NCBI GenBank assembly: GCA_018061005.1
Contig: JAGOVA010000003.1
Coordinates: 1 to 64,000, forward strand
Reading direction: 5' to 3'
From: Sterolibacterium sp.
Lineage (GTDB): Bacteria > Pseudomonadota > Gammaproteobacteria > Burkholderiales > Rhodocyclaceae
DNA length: 64,000 bases
Shown: in pieces, positions 3,537 to 11,363 of the stretch
How positions within the stretch are numbered: the first letter of the stretch is position 1
How the letters are laid out: each line of letters begins with the position of its first letter
Translations under genes and position numbers: made by a program
Notes under the pieces: model-generated
The model's database searches: none
What the model was told of the DNA's origin: nothing
Seen by the model: only the letters and a program-made list of their open reading frames with translations

Positions 3537-4655
3537 TCAGGTTTTGCTGCCGTCCGGTGCCAGATAGCCGCAGACTTCGAGGCCGAAGCCGGTCATGCTG
3601 GGCATCTTGCGCGGGCTGGACATCAGGCGCATCTTGCCGACCCCCAGGCTGCGGAGGATCTGTGCGCCGATGCCGTAGGTGCGGGGATCCCACTTTACGG
3701 CGGGGCGGCTGGGGGTGTCGGTGGCATCGGCGTGCAGGGCGGCGAGCAGGCTCTGGCCACTTTCCGGATTCTGGCGTTGCAGCAGGATGATCACGCCCGA
3801 GTCGGCGGTTGCGATGGTCTGCATGGCCTGATCCACATTGAATGAGCTGCGGGTACGTTTGCAGTCGAGAAAATCCAGTAGCGATGCCGACTCCTGCACG
3901 CGCACCAGGGTTTCCTGATCGCGCTGGATGTCGCCCCGGGTGAGTGCCAGATGCACTTCGCCCGAGGTTTTGTCTTCAAACGCTGTCAGCCGGAATACCC
4001 CGTGGTGACTGAGGATTTCTTTTTCAGCCACGCATTCGATCAGGGTTTCCGTTTCGCTGCGGTAGTGGATGAGGTCGGCAATGGTGCCGATCTTGAGGCC
4101 GTGTTCTTTTGCGTATTCGATCAGGTCGGGCAGCCGCGCCATGCTGCCGTCTTCCTTGAGGATTTCGCAGATCACCGCAGACGGTTCGCAACCGGCAATG
4201 GCGGAAAGATCGCAGCCCGCTTCGGTGTGGCCAGCACGCACCAGCACGCCGCCGGGCTTGGCCATGATCGGGAAAATGTGACCGGGCTGGACGATGTCGG
4301 TGGCTTTGGCGTTTTTGGCAACGGCGGCCTGTACGGTGCGTGCGCGGTCGTGTGCTGAAATGCCGGTGGTCACGCCTTCGGCCGCTTCGATGGAAACGGT
4401 GAAGGCGGTCGAAAACTGGCTGCGGTTGTCGCGCGCCATTTGGGGCAGGCCGAGCTGGCGGCAGCGTTCTTCAGTGAGCGTCAGGCACACCAGACCACGG
4501 CCATGCCGTGCCATGAAGTTGATGATTTCGGGCGTGACGTGTTCGGCGGCAATCACCAGATCGCCTTCGTTTTCACGGTCTTCCTCGTCGACGAGGATGA
4601 CCATCTTGCCGGCACGGATGTCGGCGATAATGTCCTGGATCGGGCTGACGCTCAT
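3537..4655 (-). CDS. ribB: 3,4-dihydroxy-2-butanone 4-phosphate synthase fused to a degenerate GTP cyclohydrolase II-like domain (RibBX type)
   Basis: Translation from ATG 4655 gives 372 residues; the AGGA upstream supports this start over an upstream in-frame one at 4733. The N-terminal half (about 1-205) is a complete DHBP synthase with [12 protein letters not shown] and the [14 protein letters not shown] segment, converting ribulose 5-phosphate to the four-carbon riboflavin precursor. The C-terminal half resembles GTP cyclohydrolase II in fold regions ([38 protein letters not shown]). It lacks the zinc-binding CxxGD...RCDCGxQ block that RibA needs, so cyclohydrolase activity is unlikely. 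A separate ribA is expected elsewhere. Such RibBX proteins are known in proteobacteria. Confidence 0.9.
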
Positions 4656-4737
4656 GATGTCCTGCTGACCGAAGGTGAGGGAAAAGGACACACATTCTAA
4701 TCGTTTCAGGAACCCGCTGACGGTTGCGCTCAAACTT

Positions 4738-5502
4738 ATGAATCATGAGGAAATCTATCCGGTCGTGCTGCTGGCCATTCTGTTGCTGGGGGGTTTCACC
4801 CTGTATGGCACGGTCAACAACCTGAGCCCTTATGGGCGGCTGAAAGCCGCCGATGCGAAGGCCTGGAGCCTGCCTTCATCATGGGCCTGGCTGCTGTTTG
4901 AAAGTCCGCAACTGTTTGCTTTCGCGCTTACTTTCTGGTGGACGGCGGCGCATCCTTCGCCCACCGCCGTGTGGCTGTTCGCACTCTGGCAAACACATTA
5001 CCTGTATCGGGGGCTCATTTATCCGCTGCGACGTAATGACCAGGGCAAACGGTTTCCGCTGCTCAATGTGTTGTTTGGCTTTTTGTTTAATCTGATGAAC
5101 GGTTACGCCAATGGTTATGCAGTGGCACATGCCGGGCATCTGGCCACACTGGCGTGGCTGACAACCCCCTGGTTCATTGGCGGGTTGATGATGGCGGCGA
5201 CAGGCTGGTGGATCAATTTTCAGGCCGATAACCGGCTCATTGACTTGCGTCGCGACGGTTCGACGGGTTACAAGATTCCTTATGGGGGCTGCTTTCGTTA
5301 TGTTTCTGCCGCCAATTATTTTGGCGAAATCCTGCTCTGGAGCGGTTGGGCATTGATGACGCTGACCTGGGCGAGCGGCGTGTTCGTGTTATTTACACTG
5401 GCCAATCTGGTGCCTCGCGCGCTCATCAGTCATCGCTGGTATCGCACGCAGTTTCCTGATTATCCGGCGCAGCGGCGGGCGATCATTCCCTTTCTGCTCT
5501 GA
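4738..5502 (+). CDS. Steroid 5-alpha-reductase-like integral membrane protein
   Basis: The predicted 254-residue protein starts at ATG 4738; a longer in-frame start at 4675 would overlap the ribBX promoter region. It has about six hydrophobic segments. The C-terminal third carries the pattern of 3-oxo-5-alpha-steroid 4-dehydrogenase family members: GYKIPYGGCFRYVSAANYFGEILLWSGWAL, a conserved NYFGE, and SHRWYRTQFPDYPAQRRAIIPFLL at the end. The family reduces a double bond next to a carbonyl using NADPH. In bacteria the substrate is mostly unknown; sterols, polyprenoids or fatty-acid derivatives are possible. It is divergent from ribBX and 77 bases before a FadL-type channel. Confidence 0.8.
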   Translation: MNHEEIYPVVLLAILLLGGFTLYGTVNNLSPYGRLKAADAKAWSLPSSWAWLLFESPQLFAFALTFWWTAAHPSPTAVWLFALWQTHYLYRGLIYPLRRNDQGKRFPLLNVLFGFLFNLMNGYANGYAVAHAGHLATLAWLTTPWFIGGLMMAATGWWINFQADNRLIDLRRDGSTGYKIPYGGCFRYVSAANYFGEILLWSGWALMTLTWASGVFVLFTLANLVPRALISHRWYRTQFPDYPAQRRAIIPFLL

Positions 5503-5540
5503 GCGCCTCTGAGTGGTTCTGAGCAGTTATGCGGGGCTGG

Positions 5541-5546
5541 TAGAAT
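5541..5546 (+). promoter_or_regulatory. Candidate -10 element for fadL-like gene
   Basis: TAGAAT lies 33 bases before the ATG of the FadL-like gene. A -35 element at the right distance is poor (TTCTGA at 5517-5522, 18-bp spacer), so this is a weak call. Confidence 0.3.
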
Positions 5547-5579
5547 CCTCCCTTTTTCACACATCTTTCCGGATTCATC

Positions 5580-6851
5580 ATGTCGATCAAGAAAACTTCG
5601 GTTCTAAATTGCAGTGTCGCGCTGGCCATGCTGGCGATTTCCTCCACCACCTGGGCGACCAATGGCTATTTTCAGCATGGCTATGGCGTTAAATCGCAGG
5701 GCATGGCGGGGGTGGGCATCGCGCTGCCGCAGGATGGTCTGGCGGCAGCGACCAATCCGGCCGGGCAGGCGTTCGTTGGGGATCGCGCAGATCTCGGCCT
5801 GACCTGGTTTGTGCCCAAGCGCGGCGCCGAGGTGGTGGGTAATCCGATGATCAGTGGCTCTTACGACGGCAACGAAACTCGCAATTTCTTCATTCCCGAA
5901 TTTGGCTATGTCAAACAGGTGACGCCGGCGCTGGCAGCGGGAGTGGCCGTGTATGGCAATGGCGGCATGAATACGGATTATTCGCGTAATCCTTTTGCCG
6001 GTTTCGGCTCGACGGGCACGGCTTACATGAACATGGAACAACTGTTCATCGCGCCGGCATTGGCCTGGAAGGTGACCCCGCAGCAATCACTGGGCGTGGC
6101 CTTGAATCTGGCGTATCAGCGTTTCTCGATCAAGGGTCTGGGCGCGTTTGCCAACCCCATGTTTTCGTCTGACACCGCCCATGTGACCGATCGCGGAACA
6201 GACACCAGCACCGGTGCGGGCGTGCGTCTGGGCTGGACGGGGCAAGTGCTGCCGAGCCTCACGCTGGGCGCGACCTGGGCATCGAAAACCCGCATGGGCA
6301 AGCTGGACAAGTATCGCGGCCTGTTTGCCGAGCAGGGTAGCTTCGATGTGCCGGCCAACTATGGCGTGGGCGTGGCCTGGAAACCGTTGGGCGCGCAGGA
6401 TGCACTCACGCTGGCGCTGGATGTGCAACGCATAGAATATAGCGGCGTGAAATCCGTTGGTAATTCACTGGCCAACCTGTTCGCGGGCAATCCGCTCGGC
6501 TCGAACAACGGCGGCGGTTTCGGCTGGCGTGATGTGACGGCGACCAAGCTGGGCGTGAGTTACGAGGCGAGCCGTGATTTGACGCTGCGTGCCGGTTACA
6601 GCCACAACACCCAGCCGATTCCGGCCGACCAGACGATGTTCAACATCATCGCGCCGGGGGTCATCAAGGAGCACCTTTCGCTGGGCGGAAGCTGGAAGAT
6701 TGGCACTGGCGAACTGAGTGCCGCTTACACCCATGCCTTCAAGAACACGGTGAACGGTTCTGGCTCGATCCCCGCCATGATGGGCGGGGGTGAAGCCAAT
6801 CTACACCTGAAGGAAGACATCTTCGGCGTGGCCTGGGGCTGGAAGCTGTAA
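5580..6851 (+). CDS. FadL/OmpP1/TodX-family outer membrane transporter
   Basis: The 423-residue protein starts with a cleavable signal peptide (about 1-26, cleavage after TTWA). The mature N-terminus follows with the FadL-family opening NGYFQHGYGVKSQGMAGVG, in which NGY inserts into the barrel, and then LPQDGLAAATNPAG. The rest alternates amphipathic strands and ends in VAWGWKL, a typical outer-membrane C-terminus. The family moves long-chain fatty acids or other hydrophobic compounds across the outer membrane by lateral diffusion. The neighbouring 5-alpha-reductase-like gene fits a lipid or steroid-like substrate, which is inference. Confidence 0.88.
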   Translation: MSIKKTSVLNCSVALAMLAISSTTWATNGYFQHGYGVKSQGMAGVGIALPQDGLAAATNPAGQAFVGDRADLGLTWFVPKRGAEVVGNPMISGSYDGNETRNFFIPEFGYVKQVTPALAAGVAVYGNGGMNTDYSRNPFAGFGSTGTAYMNMEQLFIAPALAWKVTPQQSLGVALNLAYQRFSIKGLGAFANPMFSSDTAHVTDRGTDTSTGAGVRLGWTGQVLPSLTLGATWASKTRMGKLDKYRGLFAEQGSFDVPANYGVGVAWKPLGAQDALTLALDVQRIEYSGVKSVGNSLANLFAGNPLGSNNGGGFGWRDVTATKLGVSYEASRDLTLRAGYSHNTQPIPADQTMFNIIAPGVIKEHLSLGGSWKIGTGELSAAYTHAFKNTVNGSGSIPAMMGGGEANLHLKEDIFGVAWGWKL

Positions 6852-6859
6852 TCGGTTCG

Positions 6860-7303
6860 TCATACGTCTGCTGCACGGTCTGACCACAGGCCGTGCAGCA
6901 AGGCGCCGATCAGGATGCAGATCAACGCCACCAGCAGGTCGTAGCGGCCGATCACGATGCCCGCGCCCAGTCCGGCCAGTGCCGGGCCTGGGCAGACGCC
7001 ACACAAGCCCCATCCCAGACCAAACAGCACGCCGCCCAGCGCACTCTGGCGATCGAGCGTGAACGGGCGTTTTTCAAATTCGTTGCCCAGCAGGGCGCGT
7101 GCGCGCAGGCGCGGCAGCAGCTGAAACACCAGCAGATTCACGCCGACCGCACTGCCCAGCACCAGCAGCAGGCCGAGATCCTGCAGGGTGAGAAATGCCA
7201 GGATGGATTCCGGGCGGATCATCGTCGCCCAGGCAAGCCCGAAACCAAACAGCAGACCACTGGCGAGGGTGAAGAACAGGTCGAGTAACGGTTTCATGTT
7301 CAT
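6860..7303 (-). CDS. YeeE/YedE-type (DUF6691) membrane protein, second subunit of a sulfur-compound transporter
   Basis: The 147-residue protein has four or more hydrophobic segments and the pattern GLGWGLCGVCPGPALAGLGAG, the half-channel motif with conserved cysteine and proline in YeeE/YedE proteins. In E. coli YeeE takes up thiosulfate as one long chain. Here, as in many proteobacteria, two short proteins form the pair. It starts 3 bases after the upstream subunit's stop, so they are one transcription unit. The last codons contain a perfect 10-bp inverted repeat (6869-6878 with 6891-6900) with no U-run after it. Confidence 0.85.
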   Translation of the reverse strand: MNMKPLLDLFFTLASGLLFGFGLAWATMIRPESILAFLTLQDLGLLLVLGSAVGVNLLVFQLLPRLRARALLGNEFEKRPFTLDRQSALGGVLFGLGWGLCGVCPGPALAGLGAGIVIGRYDLLVALICILIGALLHGLWSDRAADV

Positions 7304-7306
7304 GGT

Positions 7307-7768
7307 TCAGACCCCCAGACGTGCCATCAGCAGGGCGGTTGCAATCGCTGTGCTGAGAAAGGTGCAGACCATCAGGATCGAGCCGCCCGACAGTGAAGCC
7401 ATGCCGCAGATACCGTGGCCGGAGGTGCAGCCGCCGCCCAGGCGCGCGCCAAAGCCGATCAGTAACCCACCGACGGCAAATTTCCAGAGTGGAATCTGCG
7501 TGGCTTCCATCGGCAGGCCGATGGCGGCATACAGCAGCCCGCCCAGCAACATGCCGATGGCGTAGGTGTTGCGCCACTGGCGGCTGCCCAGCAGGCTGGC
7601 CTGGCGGAAGAAGGGGGTTTGCAGAAAGTAGGTCCAGACCGCGCTGAGGAAGGTGGACGCGCCGCCCTGGCGACCGGTGGTGGCGTAAAGCAGCGCCACG
7701 CCACTCCCCATGATGAGGCCGCCAATCAGATAGGGCGCAAAGCCGTGAGGAAACAAGGTGTCGATCAT
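7307..7768 (-). CDS. YeeE/YedE-family sulfur transport membrane protein, first subunit
   Basis: The 153-residue membrane protein contains RLGGGCTSGHGICGMASLSGGS, the signature of YeeE/YedE proteins, whose Cys residues are thought to pass thiosulfate or persulfide through the membrane. N-terminal PYLIGGLIMGSGVALLY is a typical first helix. It forms a pair with the gene at 6860-7303. Comparable pairs in other bacteria are often controlled by persulfide-responsive BigR/SqrR repressors; no such gene is beside it here. It follows apeB by 39 bases on the same strand. Confidence 0.87.
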   Translation of the reverse strand: MIDTLFPHGFAPYLIGGLIMGSGVALLYATTGRQGGASTFLSAVWTYFLQTPFFRQASLLGSRQWRNTYAIGMLLGGLLYAAIGLPMEATQIPLWKFAVGGLLIGFGARLGGGCTSGHGICGMASLSGGSILMVCTFLSTAIATALLMARLGV

Positions 7769-7807
7769 GATGTTCAGTGTAAAGGTCAGGGGGCGGTCGG
7801 TGGGAAA

Positions 7808-9130
7808 TCAGTCGGCGTAGGCTGCCGTCAGTGCCGCGATCATCCAGGCGTGGTCGAGCACACCGGCACTTTCGCGCGCGCTGTGCATGGCCCACATCGG
7901 TGAGCCGACATCCACACTGGCGATCCCCAGTTGCGCCGCCAGCAGGGGGCCGATGGTGCTGCCACAGCCCAGGTCGCTGCGATGGGCGTATTGCTGGAAG
8001 GGCACACCGGCGGTCTTGCAGCAGCGCATGAAACGCGCCGCCGTTTCGGCCTGCGTGGCATATCGCTGGCTGGCGTGGGTTTTGATGACCGGCCCGCCAT
8101 TGACGGCGACCTTGTGAGCGGGCTCGTAAGCCGCCGGAAAATTGGGCTGATAAGCATGCGCCATGTCGGCACTGATGAAAAAACTGCGGGCGCGGGCGCG
8201 TAGCTGGTCTTCGGCATCCAGCCCCATTTGCGAGGAGATGCGGGTGAGCACATCGGCCAGGAAACTGCCCGCCGCACCCGTCGCACTTTCGCTGCCGACT
8301 TCTTCGTGATCAAACAGGGCGGCCATGCAGGTGGCTGTGGGCTGCGGGGTGGCGACCAGGGCGCGAAGTGCCGCGCAGGAGGAGGCGAGATTGTCGAGCT
8401 GGCGGCTGGCGATGAATTCTTCGTTGGCGCCCCACAGACTGCCGGGTTGCGCGTCATGCACATTCAGTTCCCAGCTTTGAATGTCGCAGGCTTCGGCTTG
8501 CACCGCGCTGGCCAGCAAGCCGCGAAAACGGGCTTCGGCGGAATGTTCGTCGCTGGCACTCAGGAGCGAGAGTTGCGCCAGCAGCAGCGGCAGCTCGGTT
8601 TGCCGGTTGAGCTTGAGCCCTTGCTCATTCACCTCGCGGTTCATGTGGATGGCGAGATTGGGCAGCCGCAGCAAGGGACGGGGAAAGCGCAGCAGACGTG
8701 GAACCAGCCCGGTCTTTGTCTGCACCACGACGCGTCCGGCCAGGCTCAGGTCGCGGTCGGTGAAGCTGGCCAGGATCGGCCCGCCATACACTTCGACCGC
8801 CAGCCGTGCCAGGCCATCGCTTGCCAGCGTGGCTTTGGGTTTGAGACGCAGGGCGGGGGAGTCGGTATGCGTGCCGACGATGCGAAAGCCGGTTTCCGTC
8901 AAAGGCTGGCTGCCCATGACAAACGCAATCAGCGCGGCACCGCCTCGCACGACGTAATAACGGCCACCGGCCTGCAAAGACCAGCGCGCGGTCTCGTCAA
9001 GCGCGCTGTAACCCTGGGCATCCAGCCGTGCTGTGGCGGTCGCAACAGCATGCCAGGGGCTGGGGCTGGCGTCGATGAAGTCAATCAGGTCAAGCGCGGC
9101 AGCGCGGGCGGTGGGGGAAATGTTCATCAT
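7808..9130 (-). CDS. apeB: M18-family aspartyl aminopeptidase
   Basis: The 440-residue zinc aminopeptidase should release N-terminal acidic residues from peptides in the cytoplasm. Metal and catalytic motifs are in place: VGTHTDSPALRLKP (His and Asp ligands), DHEEVGSES, SADMAHAYQPNF, and the C-terminal HRSDLGCGSTIGP with SVDVGSPMWAMHSARE. Length matches the family. Its ATG (9128-9130) directly abuts a stranded ribE stop codon (TAA, complement of 9131-9133). The original arrangement was therefore ribE followed at once by apeB, before the AbiE island came between them. Confidence 0.95.
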   Translation of the reverse strand: MMNISPTARAAALDLIDFIDASPSPWHAVATATARLDAQGYSALDETARWSLQAGGRYYVVRGGAALIAFVMGSQPLTETGFRIVGTHTDSPALRLKPKATLASDGLARLAVEVYGGPILASFTDRDLSLAGRVVVQTKTGLVPRLLRFPRPLLRLPNLAIHMNREVNEQGLKLNRQTELPLLLAQLSLLSASDEHSAEARFRGLLASAVQAEACDIQSWELNVHDAQPGSLWGANEEFIASRQLDNLASSCAALRALVATPQPTATCMAALFDHEEVGSESATGAAGSFLADVLTRISSQMGLDAEDQLRARARSFFISADMAHAYQPNFPAAYEPAHKVAVNGGPVIKTHASQRYATQAETAARFMRCCKTAGVPFQQYAHRSDLGCGSTIGPLLAAQLGIASVDVGSPMWAMHSARESAGVLDHAWMIAALTAAYAD

Positions 9131-9170
9131 TTAATGGGCGCTGGTCAGTCGCTCGCAATAGCGGGCGATC
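9131..9170 (-). pseudogene. Displaced original 3' end of ribE
   Basis: On the minus strand this stretch reads IARYCERLTSAH followed by TAA. The intact ribE at 10758-11363 ends IARYCERMTLASCT. The first 19 bases (complement of 9152-9170) are identical to the ribE copy at 10785-10803; after that the DNA differs although the next residues stay similar (R-L-T versus R-M-T). It abuts apeB without a gap. It is the old ribE terminus cut off by insertion of the AbiE module. Confidence 0.85.
9152..9170. repeat. 19-bp direct repeat, left end of AbiE island (att-like)
   Basis: CTCGCAATAGCGGGCGATC is identical to 10785-10803; the flanking base differs on each side (G versus T left, G versus T right). 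The repeat is the coding sequence IARYCE of ribE read on the plus strand. It contains a small dyad, TCGC and GCGA. Identical copies at both ends are what site-specific integration with a core crossover would leave. Confidence 0.9.
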
Positions 9171-9253
9171 GCGTCGTTTCGTATTTCATTGATTTAGCGG
9201 AATTTCGCGCAACCCCGTATTGTCCCAGAAGGGGTTTGGACGTAGCAAGGCCA

Positions 9254-10041
9254 CTAAACATTCTTCCCCCACAGCAGTGGGCGTAACTCGCTGACCAGTT
9301 CATTCAGGGGCGGCGCCTGCAGTTTGTTCTTGTTGAGAAAAGCCTTCCACTGCTGAATCTTCGTACCGTCGTGGGTAAATGCATCCGACAAACCCAGCGG
9401 CAGTTCCTGTGGCATGGGGGTTCCCCGTCGCGAGAACGTCGCGGCAATGGCTTCCTGCAAGATGTTGGGGTCAAACGGAACATGTTTTGCCAGCATCCAA
9501 AGATCAAAATAGTCTTTGAGGCGGGTGTTTACCATGCCAAGGCTGACCATCGCTTGGTACTTCTCGGCGACGACGGTATAGGCCGGATAGGCTCTCATCA
9601 CCGGCGCGGCCATGTCGTCAAGCAGCACGGGGAAGGTCACGCGTTCTGGTTCTGGCGTGATGGCATCACCATAGCCCACGTCGATCTGGACGGCGCAACG
9701 GGCACCATCCAGAATTCCGAGCAAGGTCACGCGAATCCTCGCGTAGTGAGCCTCCTTGCGTATCTCTGCTGCGCGTATCGTAGTTGCGTCGAAGGTGATG
9801 CCGTCTTCGCATGCAAGGACACAGACTTCGCGGAAGATATTTGCTACAGCATCCCCTTCAGGCTGGCCAAGGCCGAGCAAGTCTATGTCACGCGTAGGGC
9901 GATGCGGTTGATCGAACCAGAGATCAAATAGCAATGCGCCCTTGAGCAGAAACGCATCATGCCATAGTCGGCGCCATTGTCTTTGGCGCGGTTTAGCAAA
10001 CGGACACGAACTGATGCCCCAATGTTCTTGTGGGCACTCAT
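9254..10041 (-). pseudogene. AbiEii-like nucleotidyltransferase toxin, broken by internal deletion and frameshift
   Basis: The gene begins at ATG 10041 with MSAHKNIGASVRVRLLNRAK, a normal AbiEii N-terminus. About 27 codons in, it jumps to sequence that belongs in another frame: HDAFLLKGALLFDLWF, then RPTRDIDLLG (nucleotidyltransferase GS/DxD-type motif) and about 200 further residues of the family. Roughly 20-25 residues normally between these parts are missing and the frame is lost; the original frame stops at the TAG whose complement lies near 9883. The long remaining frame has only a TTG at 9934 as a start. The toxin is therefore probably inactive. Its start overlaps the antitoxin stop (ATGA), the usual AbiE coupling. 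Confidence 0.82.
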
Positions 10042-10649
10042 GGCTTGGCTCCCAGTGCTTCCATATAAGGGCGCATCACGTTCGCCACCCGGCAAATTTG
10101 CGCGTAACGCCAGAGTTCATCCATGGTCACGCGTCGCGCTGCCCATGCTTCATTCAGGGCTTCCAACGCCACATCAAGCCCCAGCTTGTTGCGGAATTTG
10201 AAGCAATCAGCTACCGTTTTTGCCACGCAGAATACGCGCACGCTGGTTCCGGCAACATTCGCGCTCTCTATGCCGGTCGTCATGGCTACACCGGACATGT
10301 GAACAATACGAAGCGGTGGGTAGTCGAGCTTCGGCGGGTGTGCCTTATGGGGGATTGCCAGCCAGATTTCAGAGGATTGCTGGGTAGTCAACTCATGAAA
10401 TCGCAGGGCTGAAATCAGGCACACCACGCCGCGCTCACTTTTGGCCGATACCTCAGCCAGCGCCCCGTTTTCCGAGAATGGTCTGTCCGGCAGCGCATAC
10501 AGGCCGCGCCCAAGCCTGGAGAGAAGCCCTTCGCGTACGAGCTTCGCAAGTGCGACCCGTGATTCTCCTGCGGCACACACATCACGCGTGCGCAGTACGC
10601 CCTTGCTATGCGCAAGATTCAGTATGGGGTGGTACGGTGTGTTTGCCAT
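10038..10649 (-). CDS. AbiEi-family antitoxin of a type IV toxin-antitoxin/abortive infection system
   Basis: From ATG 10649 the protein has 203 residues. The N-terminal winged helix (HPILNLAHSKGVLRTRDVCAAG, then LVREGLLSRLGRGLYALP) is the DNA-binding, autorepressing part of AbiEi. The C-terminal antitoxin domain contains RVFCVAKTVADCFKFRNKLGLDVALEALNEAW, typical of the family. AbiEi represses the operon and neutralises AbiEii without binding it. The gene appears intact although its toxin is broken. Together with the toxin remnant it is the only cargo of the island flanked by 19-bp repeats. Confidence 0.9.
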   Translation of the reverse strand: MANTPYHPILNLAHSKGVLRTRDVCAAGESRVALAKLVREGLLSRLGRGLYALPDRPFSENGALAEVSAKSERGVVCLISALRFHELTTQQSSEIWLAIPHKAHPPKLDYPPLRIVHMSGVAMTTGIESANVAGTSVRVFCVAKTVADCFKFRNKLGLDVALEALNEAWAARRVTMDELWRYAQICRVANVMRPYMEALGAKP

Positions 10650-10757
10650 GCGGTTAAGCTTGTACAAATGCGCGGCACAAATCAAAAAATACCGACGTTT
10701 TGTATTGTTTCTGCAGGCGGCGTGAGCATCTTTTGTAACCCCCTGCGTCGTCGTTAT

Positions 10758-11363
10758 TCAGGTACAGGATGCCAAAGTCATCCTCTCGCAATAGCGGGCG
10801 ATCTGGTCGATTTCCAGATTGACGCGGCTGCCGGGCTGGAGGTGACGCAGGGTGGTGACGGCCACCGTGTGCGGGATCAGGTTGATCGAAAAATCCGCGC
10901 CGTCGGCGACATCCACGACATCATTGATGGTGAGGCTAACGCCCTGGACGGCGATCGAGCCTTTGCGGGCGATGTAGCGTGCGAGGGCTTGGGGGGCGCG
11001 GATTACCAGCAGGTGAGATTCGCCGATGGGCTCGAAGCGGACGACCGTGCCGATGCCATCGACATGGCCGCTGACCAGATGGCCGCCGAGGCGGTCGGCC
11101 AGACGCAGCGCCTTTTCGAGGTTGACTTCGTTCATGCCGTCGAGCCCGCTGGTGCAGTCGAGGGTTGCACGCGAAACGTCGATTTTGTATTGATGCGCGC
11201 TTATTTCGATGACGGTGAGACACACACCGTTGTGGGCGATGGAGTCGCCCAGGGCGACATCGGTGAGATCGAGGTCGGGCGCATCGATGGTCAGGCGCAG
11301 GCCTTGTTCAAGGGGCTGGATGTGGGAGATTTTGCCGATGGCGGCGACGATGCCTGTGAACAT
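10758..11363 (-). CDS. ribE: Riboflavin synthase alpha chain
   Basis: RibE dismutates two 6,7-dimethyl-8-ribityllumazines into riboflavin and the pyrimidine precursor. The 201-residue protein starts MFTGIVAAIGKI and shows the two lumazine-binding repeats: GDSIAHNGVCLTV with GGHLVSGHVDGIG, and GSIAVQGVSLTINDV with NLIPHTV. The start at 11363 is set by the family N-terminus. The last residues (ERMTLASCT) come from the inserted AbiE island; the original end (ERLTSAH) is at 9131-9170. The core is complete, so activity should be preserved. It lies 22 bases downstream of dsbD on the same strand. Confidence 0.96.
   Translation of the reverse strand: MFTGIVAAIGKISHIQPLEQGLRLTIDAPDLDLTDVALGDSIAHNGVCLTVIEISAHQYKIDVSRATLDCTSGLDGMNEVNLEKALRLADRLGGHLVSGHVDGIGTVVRFEPIGESHLLVIRAPQALARYIARKGSIAVQGVSLTINDVVDVADGADFSINLIPHTVAVTTLRHLQPGSRVNLEIDQIARYCERMTLASCT
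10785..10803. repeat. 19-bp direct repeat, right end of AbiE island inside ribE
   Basis: This copy is identical to 9152-9170 and lies within the ribE coding sequence, encoding IARYCE. Bases 10758-10784 to its left, the ribE tail, therefore belong to the island. Confidence 0.9.

Follow-up and report, generated by a model that had tools for sequence, protein, structure and literature searches.

Within the window, by which we mean the entire 64,000-nucleotide stretch analysed here (positions 1–64,000 of contig JAGOVA010000003.1 of the Sterolibacterium sp. draft genome GCA_018061005.1, 3.08 Mb in 135 contigs), a pair of AbiE genes lies between ribE and apeB, all on the minus strand. The riboflavin synthase gene ribE (10758–11363), assigned from matches to its lumazine-binding domains and by comparison with 73 ribE loci of relatives, is present as a single copy in this genome, and apeB (7808–9130) encodes an M18 aminopeptidase (PF02127). 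Further along the span 3537–11363, ribBA (3537–4733) is parted from ribE by apeB, a DUF6691-type gene pair and a FadL-like gene.

The AbiE pair is bounded by two exact copies of a 19-bp sequence, at 9152–9170 and 10785–10803 (minus strand), which delimit a segment of 1633 bp. These copies had been noted in a first-pass annotation of the window, and both sets of coordinates were confirmed; no further match was found in the window at up to three mismatches, and in the whole 3.08-Mb draft genome these are the only two exact copies. Shuffled versions of the window gave a mean of 0.02 matches, with two matches in none of 100 shuffles. As had also been proposed, the right copy codes for IARYCE in ribE, as is clear from the minus-strand reading of 10758–11363, while the left copy reads on, in frame with ribE, as ERLTSAH-stop and abuts apeB, whose ATG at 9130 comes directly after the stop. 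The locus consequently has two ribE tails: one joined to the gene (10758–10784), ending RMTLASCT-stop and, judged by the position of the repeat, probably supplied by the insert, and a displaced one (9131–9151, RLTSAH-stop), which is in frame with the core and was presumably the original. The RibE tails of relatives have an Arg at the corresponding position in 73 of 73 cases, followed by Met in 49 and Leu in 12, and both tails in the window retain this residue, as RM in the insert tail and as RL in the displaced tail. The suggestion that incoming DNA gave ribE a new tail is supported by the fact that this tail has both the universal Arg and the commonest next residue.

Six ORFs in the insert were scanned against protein families and only two had matches, consistent with the earlier description of an insert that holds AbiEi and AbiEii alone; none of the four plus-strand ORFs matched a Pfam family. 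The gene abiEi (10038–10649), for an antitoxin/regulator, is an open frame of 203 aa with the N-terminal domain (PF13338; also called AbiEi by PADLOC), and abiEii (9254 to about 10041), for a nucleotidyltransferase-type toxin, was likewise identified by Pfam (PF08843) and PADLOC. Both families were matched at high scores. Beyond abiEii, the insert ends in a non-coding stretch (9171–9253), in which no minus-strand ORF of 60 aa is present. The first-pass annotation had recognized both genes correctly, but it overlooked a break close to the 5′ end of abiEii: the start is in a different frame from the rest, and about 20 residues that are kept in relatives are absent. Relatives carry intact abiEii copies, and the toxin gene of the window is most likely dead. 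With abiEi open and abiEii broken, the antitoxin/regulator may outlive the toxin. A search with the DNA of the module returned 20 plasmid records at 60–80% identity, all inside the AbiE genes, and no phage records.

The insert is foreign-looking, with a GC content of 0.557 (9171–10784) as compared to 0.636 and 0.625 in the left and right flanks, respectively. The presence of the 19-bp repeats at the ends of the gene pair is more than chance would provide, because only 2 of 1398 random 1.4-kb intervals had a repeat score of at least 19 within 300 bp of both ends. A looser event, a repeat of at least 17 bp anywhere within 3 kb, was seen more often, in 4 of 105 control placements (from 2 of 35 loci). 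We infer that the insertion at the ribE 3′ end is real and that the 19-mers are its putative att cores. Some similarity extends past the 19-mer on both sides (30 of 36 positions), and the ribE-like letters found there, an Asp before IARY at the left copy and Arg-Met at the right copy, are no more than suggestive, with the Arg-Met side also under selection. In IMG/VR the 19-mer had one exact match, in a phage ORF without a Pfam family match (L158, 451–469), and this ORF agrees with the region of the left copy at 26 of 27 positions; we take this match as due to chance, though it is unexplained.

The 19-bp identity in a conserved coding stretch of ribE, along with the flanking similarity, would suit a rival explanation, in which a circular DNA carrying AbiE and a short ribE-identical stretch was integrated through one crossover and needed no site-specific recombinase. 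The 19-bp core permits such homology-based integration too, and this counts against the site-specific reading. Nineteen base pairs is short for homologous recombination. In addition, RibE is kept whole at its last codons, as with site-specific elements, and there are parallels at ssrA, guaA and tRNA genes (see below). We consider the homology-driven route improbable.

No integrase, the gene by which an ICE or IME would be recognized, was found between the 19-mers by ORF and family scans. The window's genome as a whole has nine tyrosine (PF00589) and four serine (PF07508) recombinase matches, one of the latter a fragment, and none of these lies on the window's contig; no match is linked to the islet on that contig, and those elsewhere in the genome are candidates for acting in trans. 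The absence of integration and transfer genes among the six ORFs, which have matches to the AbiEi and AbiEii families only, is as in cis-mobilizable elements (CIMEs), and the exact 19-bp repeats are in the places expected for attL and attR, their att function being putative. An insertion sequence or transposon with target duplication was considered and rejected: no transposase family was matched among the scanned insert ORFs, and no terminal inverted pair of at least 12 nt was found at the two insert ends. One inverted 12-nt pair, at 92%, was present further in, about 140 and 60 bp from the ends.

If an island had entered ribE, relatives might retain the empty site, which was predicted to have one 19-mer and ribE running straight into apeB. 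We sought ribE in 61 genomes (58 with a match) and apeB in 61 genomes (11 with a match), and obtained a further 44 ribE loci from the genome_contigs collection, some genomes being present in both collections. The predicted site was not found on the 73 relative ribE loci, and apeB was on none of them within the 1.5 or 4 kb that they extend downstream, contig permitting. Because of this the ribE-apeB junction looks private to the lineage of the window; the sequence upstream of apeB in three genomes of the same genus also differs from that in the window. The first-pass annotation had taken relatives in which ribE and apeB are never adjacent as refuting an insertion, and to the letter this is what was found, but the in-frame ribE end beside apeB remains and still appears best explained by insertion.

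These neighborhoods bear on another explanation, by which AbiE was placed otherwise and the apeB block, with a ribE 3′ fragment attached, was relocated into the space between ribE and ribBA. In the relatives ribBA is present on 48 of the 73 ribE loci, on the same strand in all and no more than 200 bp from the ribE match in 40, so that the apeB block of the window, which parts ribE from ribBA, could be the moved piece, and apeB is away from ribE in all 73. Such a rearrangement would require two events and a second source of ribE, and the drop in GC ends near the repeats. We regard it as very improbable. A second example of an insertion into ribE was also sought. A degenerate core pattern was searched in 395 family genomes, the places listed being read by eye for same-contig pairs, and no same-contig pair was present among the matches listed. 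With the core at up to two mismatches, 60 of 374 order genomes had a match and only the window's genome had two near copies on one contig and strand. Other genomes with AbiE or other cargo at the ribE 3′ end, for which the first-pass annotation had proposed a search, were thus not found among the 374 order genomes and the listed family-genome matches.

The anatomy of the locus does recur at other genes. Searches for relatives of AbiEi covered 297 family genomes, 399 order genomes and 369 class genomes, sets which overlap slightly, and gave matches in 46, 50 and 33 of them, respectively. The 130 loci fetched, together with the window, gave 131 AbiE loci. Both genes are present in 109 of these, and 99 of the 109 have, in addition, 300 bp of sequence on each side; one AbiE place (G240) was left out, and in two IMG/VR loci (L156 and L157) the match spans 19 residues. 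A direct repeat score of at least 15 within 300 bp on both sides was found at 8 of the 99 AbiE loci versus 6 of 1398 random 1.4-kb intervals, which had been drawn before the locus set was enlarged (p = 6e-7). Four of the eight were rejected as islets at gene 3′ ends: L192 (a dispersed repeat), L242 (a hairpin), L229 (unclear) and L281, whose repeat we take to be the start of a mobile gene. The strict set of gene-3′-end cases (4 of 99 versus 6 of 1398, p = 0.003) includes the window that prompted the test, with 3 of 98 being independent.

The three independent cases are AbiE-only units, two of them at the 3′ end of ssrA, with a 46-bp exact repeat and a unit of 1810 bp (G086) and a 52-bp repeat at 94% and a unit of 1800 bp (G515), and the third at the 3′ end of guaA, with an 18-bp repeat with one mismatch and a unit of 1705 bp (G209). 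The gene upstream of the latter ends in a GMP synthase C-terminal domain, as confirmed by family match. The corresponding window islet at ribE has the 19-bp repeat and a unit of 1633 bp. Larger units were found at tRNA-Phe in G087 (49-bp repeats, L171 2423–6694, 4.2 kb), which holds AbiE, a helix-turn-helix protein and two other ORFs without a family, and at ssrA in G440 (about 3.3 kb, with repeats of at least 26 bp). One further locus, L247 in G539, has AbiE between direct repeats of 205 bp (96%) that lie at a larger distance and give a unit of 3.8 kb. No exact repeats of at least 17 bp within 3 kb were present at 28 AbiE loci in viral contigs, which counts against the pattern.

Where a tRNA or tmRNA gene is near AbiE, its 3′ end faces AbiE in 24 loci and its 5′ end in one (p = 1.5e-6), a ratio that becomes 23:1 when L159 and L203, nearly the same element at tRNA-Phe, are merged; counting only genes within 500 bp gives 13 to 0 (p = 2.4e-4). 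This bias is the mark of elements integrated at tRNA/tmRNA 3′ ends. The islet of the window is most likely one of several AbiE islets that sit at the 3′ ends of genes. The first-pass annotation knew of no defence module so small without its own recombinase, but parallels exist in G086, G515 and G209 and in published reports (PMC3191183 and PMC3146451).

Recombinases are also scarce near AbiE in these relatives. Tyrosine recombinases were searched for in 15 of the 21 genomes with a tRNA or tmRNA beside AbiE, and in 13 of the 15 none was found on the AbiE contig within 300 kb, several of these contigs being short. The exceptions are G435, with a weak tyrosine recombinase match about 5.5 kb from AbiE, and G471, with one about 24 kb away; in G086, a one-contig genome, the nearest is about 370 kb from AbiE. 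A serine recombinase domain near AbiE was found only in G106 and G904 (20 genomes searched). These two genomes belong to different orders and have in common a stretch of 16,115 bp at 99.2% identity (L289 and L290, respectively), which starts in tRNA-Phe and continues with AbiE and then the serine recombinase, and which by its near identity is a recently spread island. A genome of another family (G443) shares the first 1955 bp only (98.9%), from tRNA-Phe to just past abiEii. AbiE can thus occupy the att-proximal end of a complete island, and the sharing with G443 indicates that an AbiE-only stretch can be common to genomes while the remainder differs. AbiE segments of about 1.6 kb are also shared between genomes at 90–96% DNA identity (L187, L190, L224, L265, L266, L193 and L230), with edges about 90–150 bp before abiEi and 10–75 bp after abiEii. 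No repeats coincided with these edges where they were looked for, which shows that AbiE is also moved or maintained by repeat-independent routes.

The shared segments, and the similar sizes of the units at ribE, ssrA (two) and guaA (1633–1810 bp), would suit an AbiE unit of about 1.6–1.8 kb that never had a recombinase and is a minimal element mobilized in trans by the enzymes of resident islands, as for microcin H47, the precedent (PMC3191183). The two near-identical AbiE copies that lie in a full serine-recombinase island set against this that loss of the remainder is as easy an origin. Moreover, the toxin gene of the window is broken, the repeats vary in sequence and length by site, and mobility is hypothetical. 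We think this origin unlikely for the window. More generally, and only tentatively, AbiE with short flanks may constitute a class of recombinase-free minimal islets that borrow resident tyrosine or serine recombinases, have the 3′ ends of core genes (ribE, guaA, ssrA and tRNA-Phe) as their landing sites and spread as addictive defence cassettes.

For the window itself, we consider it probable that an AbiE-only islet was integrated site-specifically at the 3′ end of ribE and is now a stranded remnant of the CIME type. The 1633-bp islet would have entered the chromosome by site-specific recombination, with the 19-bp repeats as the two recombinant attachment sites. A crossover within the IARYCE-coding sequence would have joined the ribE body to the tail on the incoming DNA, keeping RibE whole and pushing the old tail to the far side, beside apeB. 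The recombinase, encoded outside the islet, would have acted from elsewhere or been lost, and the present copy would be a stranded remnant rather than an active element, which is favored because abiEii is damaged. The repeats, the frames, the two ribE tails, the lower GC, the broken toxin gene, the recombinase-free insert and the parallels at ssrA and guaA are observed directly; the att function of the repeats, the involvement of a recombinase, the order in which things happened and any larger size of the original element are putative. Counted against this explanation are the empty site and second ribE case that were not found in the searches above, and a draft of 135 contigs.

Islets without a recombinase are already known, and as far as our searches tell it is the ribE target and the AbiE-only size that are new; no report of ribE as an island target or of AbiE-only islets was found among the titles and abstracts listed in the literature searches, which covered few subscription journals. 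The single locus is of modest interest, and the greater interest is in the pattern, that AbiE pairs recur as tiny recombinase-free islets at classic att genes. This provides a testable case of how defence or addiction modules outlive, or travel without, their carrier islands.

The families of the insert are those of the AbiE type IV toxin-antitoxin/abortive infection system, with the AbiEii of the window being broken. In E. coli, AbiEii is reported from three defence hotspots, and several kinds of element use the tmRNA locus as a hotspot (PMC10121019). CIMEs have lost their integration and transfer genes and kept attL and attR (PMC5704250), and the islet of the window resembles them in that it is flanked by att-like repeats, lacks genes for integration or transfer and leaves a housekeeping gene whole at its 3′ end. 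It differs in comprising only a 1.6-kb toxin-antitoxin pair at a ribE target, with a putative att function, and in that no related ICE or IME was found at the ribE site among the 374 order genomes and the listed family-genome matches. The microcin H47 island moves without a recombinase of its own, the host supplying excision and integration (PMC3191183), and is similar to the islet of the window in being a small island with direct repeats and no recombinase genes. In contrast to the islet of the window, whose mobility is hypothetical, it is 12.6 kb in length, with long imperfect repeats and a microcin cargo, and its mobility was tested. Of the ssrA islands of Dehalococcoides, 15 are without an integration module, and the full versions carry a serine recombinase (PMC3146451). 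These islands also have repeats derived from the 3′ end of a gene, and their cargo-only members were proposed to be cis-mobilizable, but they belong to another phylum and carry other cargo, and the islet of the window targets a protein gene. In this last respect the closer likeness is to the IMEs at the guaA 3′ end, as described in PMC5704250, which enter a protein gene at its final codons and leave the protein nearly unchanged; unlike the AbiE islets reported here, they encode a tyrosine integrase. The gene ribE would be an addition to the protein genes known to accept an island at their 3′ ends and to gain a new tail from it.
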